From assembly GCA_022571845.1 (NCBI GenBank), contig JACZXB010000011.1:1-64000 (forward strand): a stretch of 64,000 bases of DNA. Direction: 5' to 3'. This stretch comes from Candidatus Zixiibacteriota bacterium. GTDB taxonomy: Bacteria > Zixibacteria > MSB-5A5 > GN15 > FEB-12. Both the position numbers and the translations under genes were made by a program. Below the pieces are notes generated by a model. That model was not told the origin of the DNA. It saw only the letters and a program-made list of their open reading frames with translations, and ran no database searches. Every line of letters begins with the position of its first letter. The first letter of the stretch is position 1. Shown piece by piece: positions 37,154-51,169 of this stretch.

Positions 37154-37504
37154 ATGAAACGCTTAATTTCTGTATTGGCAATTGCGCTGATACTAACAAT
37201 GATGTCATGGGGGACGGCAAATTCTCTCGACGCCCCCGAAAAACTGATCGTAGTTAATTACGACCACCCCTGGGGTGGCGAACATGATAACGGAGATTTT
37301 CCTACCCTCATACCCGATCCAGAAGACCCTCTTCCGGAGATAAAGCGATCAAGCGGTTTCAGGTCCTGGATAACTAACTGGTTCTACAACAGTATCTATT
37401 ACCTGAATTTCTTGCCAAAGGACGACATCACTGTTGACGTAATCGAAGACACTAACACCTATAACGATGCAACCAACTATAACTATACGGGGACAGGCAA
37501 ATGA
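37154..37504 (+). CDS. Small exported protein coupled to sigma-54 activator
   Basis: The 116-residue protein has a clear signal peptide (MKRLISVLAIALILTMMSWG, likely cut after ANS, residue about 24) and a 90-residue mature part rich in Asp, Pro and aromatic residues: HPWGGEHDNGDFP, PDPEDPLPE, then SWITNWFYNSIYYLNF and an Asn/Thr/Tyr-rich end. I recognise no family. AAAGGAG precedes the ATG by seven bases, so it is well translated. Its stop overlaps the activator start (ATGA). The arrangement resembles a signal precursor beside its receptor, but could equally be an envelope sensor target. Confidence 0.8.
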   Translation: MKRLISVLAIALILTMMSWGTANSLDAPEKLIVVNYDHPWGGEHDNGDFPTLIPDPEDPLPEIKRSSGFRSWITNWFYNSIYYLNFLPKDDITVDVIEDTNTYNDATNYNYTGTGK

Positions 37505-39738
37505 ACCGAAGCGTAAGACACGGCGATTCGTTCCCGGATGTTGCGTTGCATTATCTAAGGTCGCTTATCAAGCGCCGGGAATATGCCAATGTGGTCAAAT
37601 ACTACGAAGATAATCGTAGCGAATTTGATGCATTCGGCGGCACCAGAGCAGGTGAATCACTTCATCTGGTGTCACAGGCCTACGCTTCTGTAAATAACCA
37701 ATCTTCAGCGTTAAGAACCGCTCGACTGGCTCAACAAGAAGCCGTCGCGAATGGCGATTCGATTTTACTCGCTGAGATATTTGCTACTATCGGATCGGTA
37801 CTGATTCGATTGGGCGAGTACAAAGAAGCAGAAAAGGCCTATCGTGATGCGGAGTCTATTTTCCGCAGAAACGACCAACTCGAAGGACAATGCCGGGCAT
37901 TAAATCAGCTCTCGGGATTGTTTTTCAGACAGAATGATTATCAGCATTCAATGGCAATCCTAACAGATGCCTTGAATATCGCTCACCAACTGGGCGACAC
38001 CAAAAAGACTGCCTATATGATGGGAAACCTTGGCCGCTTGAATACTTTCTTAGGCGATTTCCCGGAAGCAACCAGGCACTTGCAGCTTAACATTGATGTC
38101 TCTACCGAATTGAACGACTGGCTTGAAGTAGGCAGAGCCTATTTGTCGTTAGCCTATGTTCACATTCAAACCGGAGAGTATCAATCGGCTGAAGAAAACT
38201 TGCAAAAAGCTAAAGAGTTCTTGAGCAAACAGAAAAGTGAAAGAGATGATATTATTTATCTCACTTATCTGGGAGAACTCTACCGCCATATGGGACGCTT
38301 GCCCGAAAGTGAAACGATTCTAAAAACGGCGCTTCAGCGAGCTGAAGAGATAGCTCCCGGCACAACTTTGGCCGGACGCGCTATGCGCCATCTGGCAGAA
38401 TTGTATGTCATGGAGCAGAAGTTCCAGGCTGCCGGCAGAATGGCGGCCAAATCGATGACAATAATGCAAAAAGCCTCTGACAGAGTCGAATGTGGAGCTC
38501 TCTATAAACTCAAAGCAGTTATCGCCGATAACTGCCAGGACAAAGCGGCGTGTCAGAAATTCTTCAATCTTTCAATTAATTTGCTCTCTGATTCGGGAGT
38601 GCGTTTTGAAAAAGCGGATACACTTGTAAAGGCAGGCATATCTGAAGCTTTTAGTAAAAAGAAACGCCTGATGTTTCTTTTCAGAGCTGAAGAATTCTAC
38701 GCCCGCTATCGCATTGCACCGCAATTAGACAATGTCGGTGCTTTGATTCAGGAATTGGGCGAAATTGGACAAGACAGGACAGCGAGTAAATCTGCTCGGA
38801 CATCCGTCGAATCCGAATTTCTTACCAATTCAAGTGATATCAAACGCTTTATGAGTCAGCTTTCTATCATCGGCAAAATGGATTTGACAATTTTACTGAC
38901 CGGTGAAACTGGTGTAGGCAAGGATCATCTGGCCCGTTACTATCATTCCCAAGTTAGGCCAGACGGACCGTTTGTAGCCATCAACTGCGCCTCGGTGCCG
39001 GAGACGCTTTTAGAGTCTGAGCTTTTTGGTCACAAAAAAGGCGCCTTTACCGGCGCTGACTCTGACAAGCTCGGCTTGTTTGCCTCAGCCAATGGCGGCG
39101 TTCTTTTCTTAGATGAAATTGGCGATATGCCGTTTGCCTTGCAAGCCAAACTTCTGGGAGTTCTGGAGCACAGACGTCTACTGCCTCTTGGCTCTACTAA
39201 AGAGGTAAAACTGGATGTAGCTTTAGTGGCCGCTACGAACCATAACTTAGAAGAGATGGTCGAGCAGGGACAATTCCGGCGAGATCTCTACTATCGGCTA
39301 AGCGGCATGACATACCATATTCCGGCTCTAAGAGAGCGCAAAGAAGACATTCCTCTTCTTTTGGATCACTTTATTAACGGTTCGAGCTTAATTTTGGACT
39401 CGGGCAAAATCCCTGAAGAAATGCTCCAGCAATTTCTTGAGTATGACTGGCCCGGAAATGTGCGGGAGCTTCAGAATAAAGTGAAGAAACTTGAAGTGAT
39501 GGCACAACTGGTTGCCGAAGGCGACTTAGTTGAGCTGACCAGGTCTCTCTTGTCTGAAGGTGACGAGATTAAAGACCATAGCTTAACTCAGAAAGTTGCT
39601 GAGTTTGAAAGGCAACTTATTGTGGAAGCTCTGGTAGCTGCCAAAGGCAACAAGTCCAGAGCGGCCAGATTTCTGGGCATTCACGAGGCCACTGTGCGTA
39701 CCAAACTGAAACGTTACGGTATAAGCCTGGCTGGCTGA
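37501..39738 (+). CDS. TPR-AAA+-Fis sigma-54 enhancer-binding activator
   Basis: The 745-residue protein opens with nine or ten TPR-like helical pairs (about 40-400), such as IFATIGSVLIRLGEYKEAEKA and AYLSLAYVHIQTGEYQSAEENL. An AAA+ domain follows with Walker A GETGVGKD (468-475), the sigma-54 contact loop GAFTGA (514-519), Walker B LFLDE (535-539) and YYRLSGMTYHIPALRERKEDIP. It ends in a Fis-type helix-turn-helix, GNKSRAARFLGIHEATVRTKL. There is no receiver, GAF or PAS domain, so the TPR array is probably the sensor. It is co-translated with the small exported protein. rpoN at 49.2 kb supplies the sigma factor. Confidence 0.95.
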   Translation: MNRSVRHGDSFPDVALHYLRSLIKRREYANVVKYYEDNRSEFDAFGGTRAGESLHLVSQAYASVNNQSSALRTARLAQQEAVANGDSILLAEIFATIGSVLIRLGEYKEAEKAYRDAESIFRRNDQLEGQCRALNQLSGLFFRQNDYQHSMAILTDALNIAHQLGDTKKTAYMMGNLGRLNTFLGDFPEATRHLQLNIDVSTELNDWLEVGRAYLSLAYVHIQTGEYQSAEENLQKAKEFLSKQKSERDDIIYLTYLGELYRHMGRLPESETILKTALQRAEEIAPGTTLAGRAMRHLAELYVMEQKFQAAGRMAAKSMTIMQKASDRVECGALYKLKAVIADNCQDKAACQKFFNLSINLLSDSGVRFEKADTLVKAGISEAFSKKKRLMFLFRAEEFYARYRIAPQLDNVGALIQELGEIGQDRTASKSARTSVESEFLTNSSDIKRFMSQLSIIGKMDLTILLTGETGVGKDHLARYYHSQVRPDGPFVAINCASVPETLLESELFGHKKGAFTGADSDKLGLFASANGGVLFLDEIGDMPFALQAKLLGVLEHRRLLPLGSTKEVKLDVALVAATNHNLEEMVEQGQFRRDLYYRLSGMTYHIPALRERKEDIPLLLDHFINGSSLILDSGKIPEEMLQQFLEYDWPGNVRELQNKVKKLEVMAQLVAEGDLVELTRSLLSEGDEIKDHSLTQKVAEFERQLIVEALVAAKGNKSRAARFLGIHEATVRTKLKRYGISLAG

Positions 39739-39750
39739 TTTATGTCTGAT

Positions 39751-39787
39751 GTGACAGAGAGTTATCCACACTCTCTGTCACTCGTTT
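39751..39787 (+). terminator. Perfect 12-bp inverted repeat after the activator gene
   Basis: Arms GTGACAGAGAGT (39751-39762) and ACTCTCTGTCAC (39770-39781) are exact complements around a seven-base loop, followed by TCGTTTTG. It begins 12 bases after the activator stop. The T run is short, so it may terminate weakly. Because the ACTCTCT half-site recurs in the next inverted repeat, a protein-binding role is also possible. Confidence 0.6.
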
Positions 39788-39841: not shown

Positions 39842-39887
39842 AGGCAGTAACTCTCTGAATATCAGAGAGTTACTGCCTTTTATTTTT
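39842..39887 (+). terminator. Perfect 15-bp inverted repeat with T-rich tail
   Basis: Arms AGGCAGTAACTCTCT (39842-39856) and AGAGAGTTACTGCCT (39864-39878) pair perfectly around a seven-base loop and are followed by TTTATTTTTAT. This is a strong intrinsic terminator for the activator unit. TAACTCTCT is also complementary to AGAGAGTTA at 39756-39764 of the preceding repeat. Its centre lies about 176 bases upstream of the predicted start of the -24/-12 promoter at 40011, a usual distance for activator sites. Confidence 0.75.
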
Positions 39888-40010
39888 ATCTGCTCGTAGA
39901 TTTATACGAGCAAATAATATCGCATCACACTTAAAAAACTGCAGGCTTACTCTTTAAGTCGTTCAGTTATAATAAGTTGCCATGCATTCAGGGAGCGCTA
40001 TAGCAGAAAG

Positions 40011-40025
40011 GGCACGGCTGTTGCT
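40011..40025 (+). promoter_or_regulatory. Sigma-54 (-24/-12) promoter
   Basis: GGCACG-GCTG-TTGCT matches the consensus TGGCACG-N4-TTGCA/T at every position except the first base (G40010 for T). GG and GC are ten bases apart, as required. Transcription should start near 40036. It lies about 300 bases after the sigma-54 activator gene and points away from it. Confidence 0.7.
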
Positions 40026-40035
40026 TAAAGATAGC

Positions 40036-40140
40036 TTGTCATTTTTGCTCGAAGGGTACTGTCGAGGTACTCCGTTCTTCTTTTCTCTTTGGTGAAGAGG
40101 CTGCCCGCACGTGAGGGGTGTGCGGGTGGTCTATTTTTTT
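40036..40140 (+). ncRNA. Putative sigma-54-dependent small RNA or terminated leader
   Basis: The predicted transcript of about 105 bases runs from the -24/-12 promoter to a terminator. Three hairpins can be drawn: GGGTAC/GTACTC (40054-40059 with 40067-40072, one G-U), CTCTT/AAGAG (40085-40089 with 40095-40099), and the terminator CCCGCAC/GTGCGGG (40104-40110 with 40120-40126). A pyrimidine-rich single strand, TTCTTCTTTT, lies between the first two. No convincing reading frame with a ribosome site is present. Size and shape fit a small regulatory RNA, as Qrr and GlmY are in gammaproteobacteria. It could instead be an attenuated leader of the symporter gene at 40292. Confidence 0.5.
40104..40140 (+). 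terminator. Terminator closing the sigma-54 transcript
   Basis: Stem CCCGCAC/GTGCGGG with a nine-base loop, followed by GGTCTA and then seven T residues (40134-40140). It is the strongest terminator in this 550-base gene-free stretch. Confidence 0.75.
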
Positions 40141-40291: not shown

Positions 40292-41731
40292 ATGGAAGCA
40301 AACAGTGTCATGGTCATTTCGTTTATAGTCTACAGCCTTGCTATAGTTGCTACCGGTCTGTATTCAATGAAACGGCGTAAGAACACCGATGAGGATTACG
40401 TCCTGGCCAATCGTGAGCTGGGCCCCTGGGCATCATCGTTGTCGGCCTCGGCTTCGTCGGAATCCGGCTGGGTCATGCTGGGGCTGGTAGGTCTGGCCTT
40501 TAACAGCGGCTTGTCGGCCATGTGGATTGTTCCGGGAATAGCAGCCGGTTATCTTTTTAACTGGTTCGTGATTGCAGAAAAACTCAGAAAAGCCAGCCTA
40601 AAAAGCGGTGCGGTTACTTTGCCACAATTTATCGCCGGCATGTTTGACAGCGACTCTCGCCTGCTGCGCTTAATTCCTGTTATTGTAATTACTGCTGCTA
40701 TGTTAGGTTATGTAGCGGCACAGATGAACGCCGCCGGCAAGGCTTTTGAAGTTACCTTTGCTCTTCCCTACCAGAGCGGAGTTCTGGTCGGGGCTGTGAT
40801 TGTACTGGCCTATACTGTCACCGGCGGGTTTCGGGCAATCTGCTGGACTGATATTATTCAGGCTTCGTTTATGTTGGTTGCACTTATAGTAATGCCGCTG
40901 ATTATGCTCAGCGAAGTTGGCGGCTATGAAATATTTAGTTCGCTACTGACTGCAACCGATCCGAACTTGTTGAGTCTCTCAGGCGGTATGAGCGGCTACG
41001 GTCTTTTAGGCTTTGTCATTGGCATGCTGGGTATCGGGCTTGGTTATCCCGGGCAGCCTCATATACTTTCCAGATTTATGGCCGCCAAAGACAGCGCGAC
41101 TGTCAAGAAAGCCGGACTCATTGCCTTCGTCTGGATGGCGGCGGTTTACACCGGAGCAATCTCTTTTGGCATGTTTGCCCGGGCTTATTTTGGTACATTG
41201 GCCGATGCCGAGCAGGCCCTGCCTCTGGCCTGTACTGAACTTCTGCCGCCGGTGCTGGCGGGCTTCGTAATAGCGGCCATTGTAGCAGCTATCTGCTCGA
41301 CGGCTGACTCTCAGTTGATTGTCGTATCTTCTGTTATTTCACGGGATGTTTTCGGCTGGGGGAAAAAAGAAGATAAGACTTCGCCCGAAGTTATTGCGCG
41401 CCACCAGCGGCTCGACAGATGGGTGCTGGTTGGCTTGGCTGTGGTAGCTGTCTTTTTTGCGCTGACTGAGAACAGAATTATATTTGATTTTGTGCTTTAT
41501 GCCTGGTCCGGACTGGGGGCAGCCTTTGGGCCGGTAATAATTTTGGGGCTGCTCTGGAAAAAAACCACCAAACAAGGCGCTATTGCGGGAATGCTGACCG
41601 GCGGTATTGTTACTGTCGTTTGGAAAAATGTCGGAGCACTAAAAGCTATAGTCTATGAACTGGTGCCGGCTTTTTTACTGGCTCTGGCATTGACCTGGCT
41701 CGTGAGCTTAATGACCCAGAAGAACAAATGA
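40292..41731 (+). CDS. Sodium:solute symporter, PutP-like
   Basis: The 479-residue SSS-family permease has about 13 helices. ATG 40292 has AAGGGAG seven bases upstream, so I reject the longer frame from 40253. The PutP-like regions are visible: ASASSESGWVMLGLVGLAFNSG (substrate/sodium site), YTVTGGFRAICWTDIIQA, and STADSQLIVVSSVISRD in the core. PutP imports proline with Na+; the exact solute here is open. The gene precedes a penicillin-acylase-family enzyme by 25 bases, suggesting that an amide is hydrolysed outside and a product imported. Confidence 0.9.
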   Translation: MEANSVMVISFIVYSLAIVATGLYSMKRRKNTDEDYVLANRELGPWASSLSASASSESGWVMLGLVGLAFNSGLSAMWIVPGIAAGYLFNWFVIAEKLRKASLKSGAVTLPQFIAGMFDSDSRLLRLIPVIVITAAMLGYVAAQMNAAGKAFEVTFALPYQSGVLVGAVIVLAYTVTGGFRAICWTDIIQASFMLVALIVMPLIMLSEVGGYEIFSSLLTATDPNLLSLSGGMSGYGLLGFVIGMLGIGLGYPGQPHILSRFMAAKDSATVKKAGLIAFVWMAAVYTGAISFGMFARAYFGTLADAEQALPLACTELLPPVLAGFVIAAIVAAICSTADSQLIVVSSVISRDVFGWGKKEDKTSPEVIARHQRLDRWVLVGLAVVAVFFALTENRIIFDFVLYAWSGLGAAFGPVIILGLLWKKTTKQGAIAGMLTGGIVTVVWKNVGALKAIVYELVPAFLLALALTWLVSLMTQKNK

Positions 41732-48367: not shown

Positions 48368-49093
48368 ATGGTAAGCTTGGAGTCTGTAAATTTAAGAAAA
48401 TACTACCGCAAAAGAGCGGTTGTTGACGGAGTCTCTATCAAAGTCGACCCGGGCGAAGTAGTCGGGCTGCTGGGACCTAACGGAGCCGGCAAAACTACTA
48501 CTTTTTATATGCTGATAGGATTTATTCAACCAGATGGCGGAAACGTCTTTTTAGGCGGGGAAGATATCGGTAATATGCCAATGTATAAACGTTCCCGCCG
48601 TGGGATTGGCTACCTGGCTCAGGAGCCGTCGGTATTCAGGAAAATGACCGTAGAAGAAAACATAATGTCGATTTTGCAGTTTCAAAAAATGACCGGCCGA
48701 AAGAGAAAAGAAAGGCTCGAAAAACTTCTGAAAGAACTTGATATTGGCCATCTCAGAAATCAAAAAGCCTACACTCTCTCTGGCGGAGAAAGAAGGCGAG
48801 TTGAAATTACCAGGGCTTTAGTCAATAAGCCCAAATTCATTCTTCTGGACGAACCTTTTGCCGGAATTGACCCGCTCGCTGTTGAAGACATTCAGGGGAT
48901 TATTTCCCGTCTGGTAGAAACAGGGCTGGGGGTGCTCATAACTGACCATAACGTCAGAGAGACCCTTTCTATTTGCTCTCGAGGCTATATAATGTGTGAC
49001 GGTAAGATTTTGAAATCCGGAAGTTCAGATTTTCTGGCTAACGACCCGGAAGCCCGAAAAATTTACCTAGGCGAAAAATTTCGCCTAAACTAA
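48368..49093 (+). CDS. lptB: LptB, LPS-transport ATPase
   Basis: LptB powers the LptB2FGC extractor that moves LPS to the outer membrane. The 241-residue ABC ATPase has Walker [10 protein letters not shown] (36-44), Q-loop [16 protein letters not shown], signature [15 protein letters not shown], Walker [14 protein letters not shown] and H-loop [10 protein letters not shown], the LptB-specific combination. It precedes rpoN by 140 bases. The lptB-rpoN-hpf order is the classical proteobacterial one, here without lptA/C just upstream. Confidence 0.95.
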
Positions 49094-49149
49094 AAGATAT
49101 ATGGCAGTGTTTAATAAGTGAACGATGTTGACCGCAAGTGTAAACCTGA

Positions 49150-49174
49150 AGCCATTTAAAACCGATAAATGGTT
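49150..49174 (+). other. Intercistronic hairpin between lptB and rpoN
   Basis: AGCCATTTA (49150-49158) and TAAATGGTT (49166-49174) pair over nine positions, one of them G-U, around a seven-base loop. No T run follows, so it is not an intrinsic terminator. It may slow or process the lptB-rpoN message. Confidence 0.35.
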
Positions 49175-49233
49175 ATAAAGGGGCACTGACAGAGAAAAAG
49201 TAAGACACTTATGAAGATATTGCGGGTACTGAT

Positions 49234-50640
49234 ATGAAATTACAGCTACAGCTAAGACAGACTCAAACACTGGCTCCCCAGCTTATTCAGTCCCTGAAGA
49301 TGCTGCAGATGCCGGCATTGAGGCTGGAACAGACTATTCGTCAGGAACTGGCCACCAATCCAATGCTTGAAGAAATAGAAGAACTTGAAGCGGAAACCAA
49401 TGATGAAGAAGAGTCTGAATTTGAAGTAGCTGAAGATGAAAAAGATAAAGAATCGGATGACAATGTCGACTGGGAAGAATTTTTGTTCGACGACGATGAC
49501 GGCTATAAAATCCGCGAGACCAAAGAGCAACGAGAAGAAATAATCGAAGGCAGCGCCGCCCAGACTAATAATCTTTATCATCACCTGACCGAGCAGCTGC
49601 ATCTGCTAAAGTTGACTGAACAAGAGCAGCTAATAGGTGAATATATAATCGGCAACATATCTCCGGATGGCTATTTGGGAATATCGGTTGAAGAAATGGG
49701 TGTTGAGTTAGGTATCCCGAATGAAAAAATAAACGAAGTTCTGGAGATGATTAAGAGATTTGACCCGTCCGGAATAGGAGCCAGGAATTTGAGAGAATCT
49801 CTCATGATTCAGTTTAGAGACAAAGGCATGGAAGGCACCTTAGCTTACCGGATAGTTGATGAGCATATCACCGACTTAGAGCGAAAATCCATATTGCAGC
49901 TGTCTAAGCTGATGGGTACCCAGGAAGAAAGAATCCAGGTAGCTCTGGAGGAAATAAAAGCACTATCACCGGCTCCGGCTCACGGCAGATTTGATCAGGG
50001 TGCCATGCCCATAGTACCGGATTTGATAGTCGAAAGAATAGGTGATGAATATGTGGTTTTTCATAACAACTCCCATATGCCCAGACTCAGGATTAATTCC
50101 AGCTACAAACAGTTAGTAAAAAGAGGTAACTCTTCATCTGAGGATACCAAAAATTATATAAAGCAGAAACTTGAGCAGGCCCGCTGGCTCTTAAATGCCA
50201 TCAACCAGAGACGCTCTACCATGATCAGAGTAATGCAGTCAATAATTGAGCGGCAGAGCGAGTTTTTTGAAAAAGGCCCGGCTTTTTTGAAACCGCTGAT
50301 TATGGAAGATATTGCCCAGATGGTTGACATGAACGTGGCCACCATTAGCCGGGTAGCTAACAGCAAATATGTTCAGACTCCTCTGGGAGTATACGAAATT
50401 AAGCACTTTTTCAATTCGGGCATTACCCGTGAGGACGGCAGCGATATGTCCAAGCGCTCTGTAAAACAACGCATTAGGGAAATAATAGAAGCTGAGTTAG
50501 CTGCCAAACCGCTTTCGGACCAGGAGATTTTCCGCCGTCTAAATGAAGAAGGCATCAAACTGGCCCGCCGGACTGTCACCAAATACCGCGAAGAATTGAA
50601 AATCCCCTCTGCCAGACTAAGAAAACGAGTGGGTGTCTGA
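49234..50640 (+). CDS. rpoN: RNA polymerase sigma-54 factor
   Basis: Sigma-54 directs RNA polymerase to -24/-12 promoters and needs AAA+ activators. The 468-residue protein has the glutamine-rich region I (residues 1-48, QLQLRQTQTLAPQLIQSLKMLQ), an acidic region II (49-100), the core-binding part, the helix-turn-helix region (EDIAQMVDMNVATISRVANSKYVQTPLG, IKHFFNSGI) and the RpoN box ARRTVTKYRE at 444-453. It is the likely partner of the activator at 37.5 kb. There is no strong ribosome site. Confidence 0.97.
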   Translation: MKLQLQLRQTQTLAPQLIQSLKMLQMPALRLEQTIRQELATNPMLEEIEELEAETNDEEESEFEVAEDEKDKESDDNVDWEEFLFDDDDGYKIRETKEQREEIIEGSAAQTNNLYHHLTEQLHLLKLTEQEQLIGEYIIGNISPDGYLGISVEEMGVELGIPNEKINEVLEMIKRFDPSGIGARNLRESLMIQFRDKGMEGTLAYRIVDEHITDLERKSILQLSKLMGTQEERIQVALEEIKALSPAPAHGRFDQGAMPIVPDLIVERIGDEYVVFHNNSHMPRLRINSSYKQLVKRGNSSSEDTKNYIKQKLEQARWLLNAINQRRSTMIRVMQSIIERQSEFFEKGPAFLKPLIMEDIAQMVDMNVATISRVANSKYVQTPLGVYEIKHFFNSGITREDGSDMSKRSVKQRIREIIEAELAAKPLSDQEIFRRLNEEGIKLARRTVTKYREELKIPSARLRKRVGV

Positions 50641-50812
50641 TAAATTGAGATATTTTTGAGCCGCCTGAAACGGGGTGCAATTCTGCTATTTCATATCCTC
50701 TAAAATTTTTGTATCTTGCTCCAGACAAGCAGTAATAAGCTGGTTTTCCGGAAAACGAAAATGCTTGAGTAAGCTCAATGTTTTTGTCGGTGTTGAAAGG
50801 AGCCATTTAAAA

Positions 50813-51169
50813 ATGCTAAAAACTATAACTGCCCGGCATTTTGATTTATCAGATGATATGAGAGCGAAAGCCGAGGATGAAATGGAAGGCCTCAAAAGAT
50901 ACTTTGATAATATTATCTCTGCTGAGCTGATTCTTGCCACAGAAAAACATATCAAGAAAGCTGAACTGAAAGTAAGGGTCTATAATCAAACCCTGGCTGC
51001 CAAAGCTGACACGGATGACTTTTACAGTTCAATTGCCAGCGTAGTAGAGAAGATAAAATCCCAGCTTAAAAAGTACAAAGGCAAGCTGAAGGATAAAAAA
51101 CCGGAGCAAATAGCAGATTTTATTGACGAGCTTACCAAACCTTCGACAGATACCGAAGGACTGGAATAG
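50813..51169 (+). CDS. hpf: Ribosome hibernation promoting factor, short form
   Basis: HPF/RaiA binds the decoding region of idle 30S subunits. ATG 50813 has AAAGGAG ten bases upstream, so the longer frame from 50675 is rejected. The 118-residue product has the beta-alpha-beta-beta-beta-alpha fold, KTITARHFDLSDDMRAKAEDEMEGLKRYFDNI and AKADTDDFYSSIASVVEKIKSQLKKYKGKLKD. It is the short type, without the C-terminal dimerisation domain. It follows rpoN as in proteobacteria and ends at a strong terminator. Confidence 0.93.
   Translation: MLKTITARHFDLSDDMRAKAEDEMEGLKRYFDNIISAELILATEKHIKKAELKVRVYNQTLAAKADTDDFYSSIASVVEKIKSQLKKYKGKLKDKKPEQIADFIDELTKPSTDTEGLE

Follow-up and report, generated by a model that had tools for sequence, protein, structure and literature searches.

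The window analysed here, a stretch of 64,000 nucleotides belonging to contig C17 of a 2.75 Mb genome (G000), contains a short region between a putative regulatory gene and a symporter gene. It raises the question of whether this region codes for an independent RNA, and if so on what that RNA acts, or whether it is the leader of the genes behind it. The sequence-only reading had proposed a sigma54-driven small RNA of the Qrr or GlmY type, with an attenuated leader of the symporter and acylase genes as the alternative.

Conservation and structure of the small RNA

The predicted RNA is about 105 nt long (40036..40140, + strand; ends inferred from the promoter and the terminator) and is present in a single copy per genome. 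The RNA region was matched by blastn, among 98 relatives, in many genera of the window genome's family. A covariance model matched 61 of the 132 genomes of the phylum (Candidatus Zixiibacteriota/GN15), one copy each; one match (L113, in G102), without the conserved hairpin and promoter, was judged to be due to chance, leaving 60 genomes with the RNA, and 44 of the 54 genomes of the window genome's family have it. The named relatives carrying the RNA are mostly assemblies of Candidatus Zixiibacteriota or candidate division GN15. Further, more diverged copies were found in family f4 with a pattern search. Another pattern match, on a 'Clostridiales' contig (L047), was not matched by the covariance model and was rejected as chance, and a search of 12 genomes by promoter pattern, aimed at missing RNAs, brought up no clear further copies. 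In Rfam nothing relevant was matched at either the gathering or relaxed thresholds, and no small-RNA study for the phylum was found in a literature search.

The homologs have a common order of elements: first comes a GG/GC promoter at a fixed distance, then the 5' sequence UGUCAUUUUUACUCC and a hairpin, next a CU-rich strand with UUUGG at its end, and last a terminal hairpin whose loop, GAGGGG, is invariant. Judged by sequence comparison, this is a conserved independent RNA with its own predicted promoter and terminator, and its conservation extends over an order of uncultured Zixibacteria.

Three hairpins had been described in the sequence-only reading. Two helices are conserved and covary, with changes on both sides in 37 cells, a number reached by 0 of 500 shuffles, but the middle hairpin (CTCTT/AAGAG) is specific to the window genus. 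The 5' hairpin GGGTAC...GTACTC (40054..40072, + strand) is predicted by folding and covaries in relatives. The terminal hairpin (40098..40132, + strand; loop GAGGGG at 40113-40118) is followed by T7 and bears out the proposed T7 terminator: the hairpin is strong, and together with T7 it closes the transcript (40098-40140; fold z = -2.4). The GAGGGG loop is found in every aligned family sequence, even where the following U-tract is absent, as it is in some relatives; this is more than a terminator alone would need. Binding of CsrA was considered and dropped, the GGA motif in the loop not being conserved. Between the hairpins lies the conserved CU-rich strand TTCTTCTTTTCTCTTTGGT (40075..40093, + strand), for which contact with a protein or a loop is possible. 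It may form a pseudoknot between its CUC and the GAGGGG loop, a pairing beyond the reach of covariation because both sides are nearly invariant.

The leader hypothesis, in which the RNA would act in cis on the downstream operon with its hairpin as a conditional terminator, can be judged from the genes that follow. The sodium:solute symporter gene (40292..41731, + strand; Pfam SSF) lies outside the conserved unit; it is directly next to the RNA only in the window genus and further away in others. Downstream genes in relatives are variously a symporter, microcompartment shell genes, an SDR, a PLD or a gene on the opposite strand. In 21 family loci (including L005 1652-2534, L029, L031, L033, L034, L039 and L040) the next gene is a BMC shell gene that has the strand of the RNA, lies no more than 300 nt away in most cases and is often followed by EutN/CcmL. 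No U-tract is present at 11 of these 21 microcompartment loci, versus 1 of 17 other loci (p = 0.004 by locus, 0.07 by genus). These observations speak for a leader. However, the downstream gene changes between genera, or changes strand, while RNA, promoter and activator stay, which speaks against leader activity being what is conserved; in addition, the terminator of the window copy is strong and includes T7, and the covariation with a distant target described below would be left unexplained. The proposed leader of symporter and acylase genes was therefore given up, and a cis-acting leader in general is considered highly improbable. Since the U-tract is often missing at the microcompartment loci, read-through may be a later addition in those lineages, and relatives that combine microcompartment genes with loss of the U-tract may read through into the downstream operon.

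Promoter, activator and enhancer

Upstream of the RNA is a predicted sigma54 -24/-12 promoter, GGGCACGGCTGTTGCT (40010..40025, + strand), reading GGGCACG-GCTG-TTGCT with GG at 40011-12, GC at 40023-24 and a spacing of 10 bp, from which transcription is predicted to start at about 40036. Its consensus score of 11/12 is the highest in the window, in agreement with the earlier claim that it is the best match there. A score of at least 11 was also obtained in 37 of 100 Markov-shuffled windows, so the score by itself is within chance and conservation must carry the claim. It does so: a GG/GC element lies upstream of 53 of 58 homologous loci, in most of them with the same spacing to the start of the RNA, and this removes the doubt.

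The gene for sigma54 is itself in the window (rpoN, 49234..50640, + strand; ORF matching PF04552). It stands in a row with a probable LptB-like ABC transporter ATP-binding gene and a hibernation-factor-like gene (48368-51169), of which only rpoN was assigned by a profile match and the other two by eye. An ABC transporter ATP-binding gene, rpoN and a hibernation-factor-like gene form the usual rpoN neighbourhood.

The promoter was correctly placed just after a probable activator gene. This gene (37501..39738, + strand) codes for a protein of 745 aa with TPR, Sigma54_activat (AAA+) and Fis-type HTH regions (Pfam), which is probably the dedicated activator of the small RNA. In nearly all f1-f3 loci that extend far enough, the RNA is preceded by a homolog of this gene on its own strand, the exceptions to a directly upstream position being G036 and the f4 loci. 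Of the 10 family genomes without the RNA, 7 have no activator either and 3 have it at a contig end; in one of the latter (G022) the contig stops inside the promoter. The genomes lacking the RNA thus lack the activator or have a contig break, from which it follows that activator and RNA are inherited together.

An unsupervised motif search identified the palindrome TTCGTA-N6-TACGAA in 44 of 44 loci, about -130 to -155 from the RNA, with an information content of 21 bits versus 7.4-7.8 in shuffled sequence. Of 14 genomes searched, 10 contain the strict palindrome, each of them once, and in 9 of those 10 it stands immediately before the RNA. In the window the site is CTCGTAGATTTATACGAG (39893..39910, strand not assigned), the sole perfect match to the family consensus there; this copy deviates from the strict version. 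The palindrome is a predicted bEBP binding site, lying in the range expected of sigma54 promoters (80-150 bp upstream), and is hereafter called the enhancer.

Two strong inverted repeats follow one another after the activator gene, at 39751-39781 and 39842-39878. The second (+ strand, between the activator gene and the RNA) consists of a 17-pair stem followed by TTTATTTTTA, and with this T-rich tail it looks like the terminator of the activator gene; the first is without a clear tail.

Complementarity to the start of a predicted anti-sigma gene

The first ~16 nt of the RNA are complementary to the Shine-Dalgarno (SD) sequence and AUG of one orthologous zf-HC2 gene in an ECF sigma operon. The 5' seed TGTCATTTTTGCTCG (40037..40051, + strand) is antisense to the SD and AUG at G000:C1:289790-289804 (L163:2291-2305), and the sequence to which the 5' end is antisense, GGAGUAAAAAUGACA, resembles a Shine-Dalgarno sequence with a start codon. 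The sequence GGAGTAAAAATGACA occurs once in the window genome, at this start (G000:C1:289790), and forms 14 pairs including one G-U. When GGAGYAAAAATGACA was searched in the 54 family genomes, 14 exact sites were found outside the RNA locus, 12 of them at the start of one orthologous gene and 2 at the start of an M3 peptidase gene in one genus. The target prediction called for earlier yielded one recurrent seed match in the family genomes, the anti-sigma start. Pairing energy is not unique to it, as 12 of 6387 window tiles pair at -18 kcal/mol or below, compared with -20.6 kcal/mol for the anti-sigma target.

By Pfam and gene order, the ortholog is the zf-HC2 protein gene directly after the ECF sigma gene, and this is the usual layout of an anti-sigma factor. 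From the gene pairing and the domain, its product is taken to be the anti-sigma factor of the adjacent ECF sigma. In the window genus the protein is shortened to 85 aa (L163 2300-2557; also in L182 of G001); the zinc finger is kept and the longer C-terminal part of relatives is gone, yet the RNA target site is intact.

To compare the two sides, the anti-sigma start was set against the RNA in 44 genomes, with the ECF sigma ortholog as anchor. Changed seeds are usually matched by a changed target across genera. Compensatory changes were found in G017 (UUUCUACUCC/GGAGUAGAAA), G009 (CAUCUUAACUCCC/GGGAGUUGAGAUG) and G014 (GGUCAUUGUUACUCCUUUG/CAAAGGAGUAACAAUGACC), and also in G036 and G063, and in G070 seed and target form more than 20 nearly continuous pairs. 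With one genome per genus, true pairs had a mean binding of -19.1 kcal/mol, a value reached in 0 of 20000 permutations, versus -15.5 kcal/mol for swapped pairs; a first permutation test with slightly different limits had the same outcome. Pairing with the ortholog used was poor in G003, G054 and G060. It is rearranged in f4, but in the two genomes looked at there the RNA is still able to pair with the SD and first codons of this ortholog.

The pyrimidine-rich strand noted in the sequence-only reading is indeed conserved; targeting, however, lies with the 5' end, which covaries with the target, and not with that strand. The CU-rich strand was rejected as a targeting seed: it has no recurrent trans complement, and a permutation test of this strand and the 3' hairpin against the anti-sigma site gave no convincing covariation. 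That strand and the GAGGGG loop are nevertheless conserved like the seed, as might be expected of a broader regulator with several targets, or of a protein-binding RNA, with the anti-sigma gene as one client. The exact seed complement at the start of the M3/oligopeptidase F-like gene in two genomes (G033 and G043; L173 1665, L175 1612) points the same way, and this gene is a possible second target. With the anti-sigma start as the one recurrent seed match, and the CU-rich strand having no such complement, the broader role is thought doubtful, although it deserves to be kept in mind.

The duplex may also act on the messenger as a whole, the entire ECF sigma/anti-sigma mRNA being degraded or stabilised with no selective block. 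In many relatives the ECF sigma stop codon lies inside the duplex together with the anti-sigma SD, and a second, weaker contact (386 of 20000 permutations) falls upstream of the SD, where the sigma gene has its 3' end, both consistent with such an effect. The seed is, however, centred on the anti-sigma SD and AUG, the classical site of a translational block, and an effect on the whole mRNA is therefore regarded as unlikely.

A predicted link between sigma factors and its relation to known systems

The RNA is most probably (at roughly 0.8) a trans-acting RNA anti-anti-sigma factor, through which sigma54 and its activator would block an anti-sigma factor and free an ECF sigma. This reading builds on the conservation, the promoter, the enhancer and the covarying complementarity established above by sequence comparison. 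The TPR domain would sense a signal, upon which the activator would bind the enhancer and drive sigma54-dependent transcription of the RNA. The 5' seed would cover the anti-sigma ribosome-binding site and stop translation of the anti-sigma factor, and the ECF sigma, whose gene comes first on the shared mRNA, would still be made; once freed, it would turn on the ECF regulon. Transcription, sigma release and the direction of regulation are all deduced, the last from the position of the duplex only.

An Hfq gene was found in 0 of 20 relatives, in a search that gave matches in control genomes. Somewhat favoured, with less confidence than the mechanism itself, is the wider view of a dedicated, Hfq-free sigma-to-sigma switch composed of one TPR activator, about one enhancer, one RNA and one ECF inhibitor, which would be order-wide and in some lineages accompanied by read-through into a microcompartment operon. 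If true, the RNA would be a counterpart of the protein anti-anti-sigma factors, and sigma54 would have a hard-wired link to an ECF sigma factor. For an uncultured lineage the target prediction is unusually firm, owing to compensatory changes that arose in nature.

The earlier proposal of a trans-acting small RNA next to its activator was upheld by the conservation, the enhancer, the joint loss of RNA and activator and the covariation with the target, and the likeness to Qrr and GlmY by the layout only. Like Qrr (LuxO/sigma54) and GlmY (GlrR/sigma54), the RNA is predicted to be made from a sigma54 promoter of its own with the help of an activator; qrr1 adjoins luxO. Unlike them, it has no Rfam match, no Hfq gene in the 20 relatives and a different target, and its activator carries TPRs in the place of a receiver domain.

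Small RNAs acting on the mRNA of anti-sigma factors are known from several systems. In E. coli, RyhB and FnrS activate synthesis of RseA, the anti-sigma factor of an ECF-type system (PMC8595263), whereas repression is predicted for the Zixibacterial RNA. OmrA and OmrB of E. coli use a conserved 5' seed to block ribosome loading on the flgM mRNA and so liberate sigma (PMC7549644), and the Zixibacterial RNA resembles them in having a conserved 5' seed and a predicted block of an anti-sigma mRNA. OmrA/B depend on Hfq, act on several targets and base-pair early in the flgM coding sequence (PMC7549644), whereas the Zixibacterial RNA would cover SD and AUG, in a group where no Hfq gene was found (20 relatives).

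There is also a likeness in function to CJnc230 (FlmE) of Campylobacter jejuni, an RpoN-dependent small RNA that directly represses the mRNA of the anti-sigma factor FlgM, so that, as predicted here, one sigma factor releases another (PMC11187230). CJnc230 arises by processing of the flgE mRNA, a further RpoD promoter being present, and its target system is sigma28/FlgM (PMC11187230); the Zixibacterial RNA, in contrast, has its own predicted sigma54 promoter, enhancer and activator and an ECF target, and belongs to another phylum, with no known sequence relation between the two. Repression of anti-sigma factors by small RNAs is thus already known (OmrA/B, CJnc230 on FlgM), and it is the RNA family that is new, being set apart, as far as sequence tells, by having no Rfam relative, by its predicted ECF-system target and by an activator and enhancer of its own.
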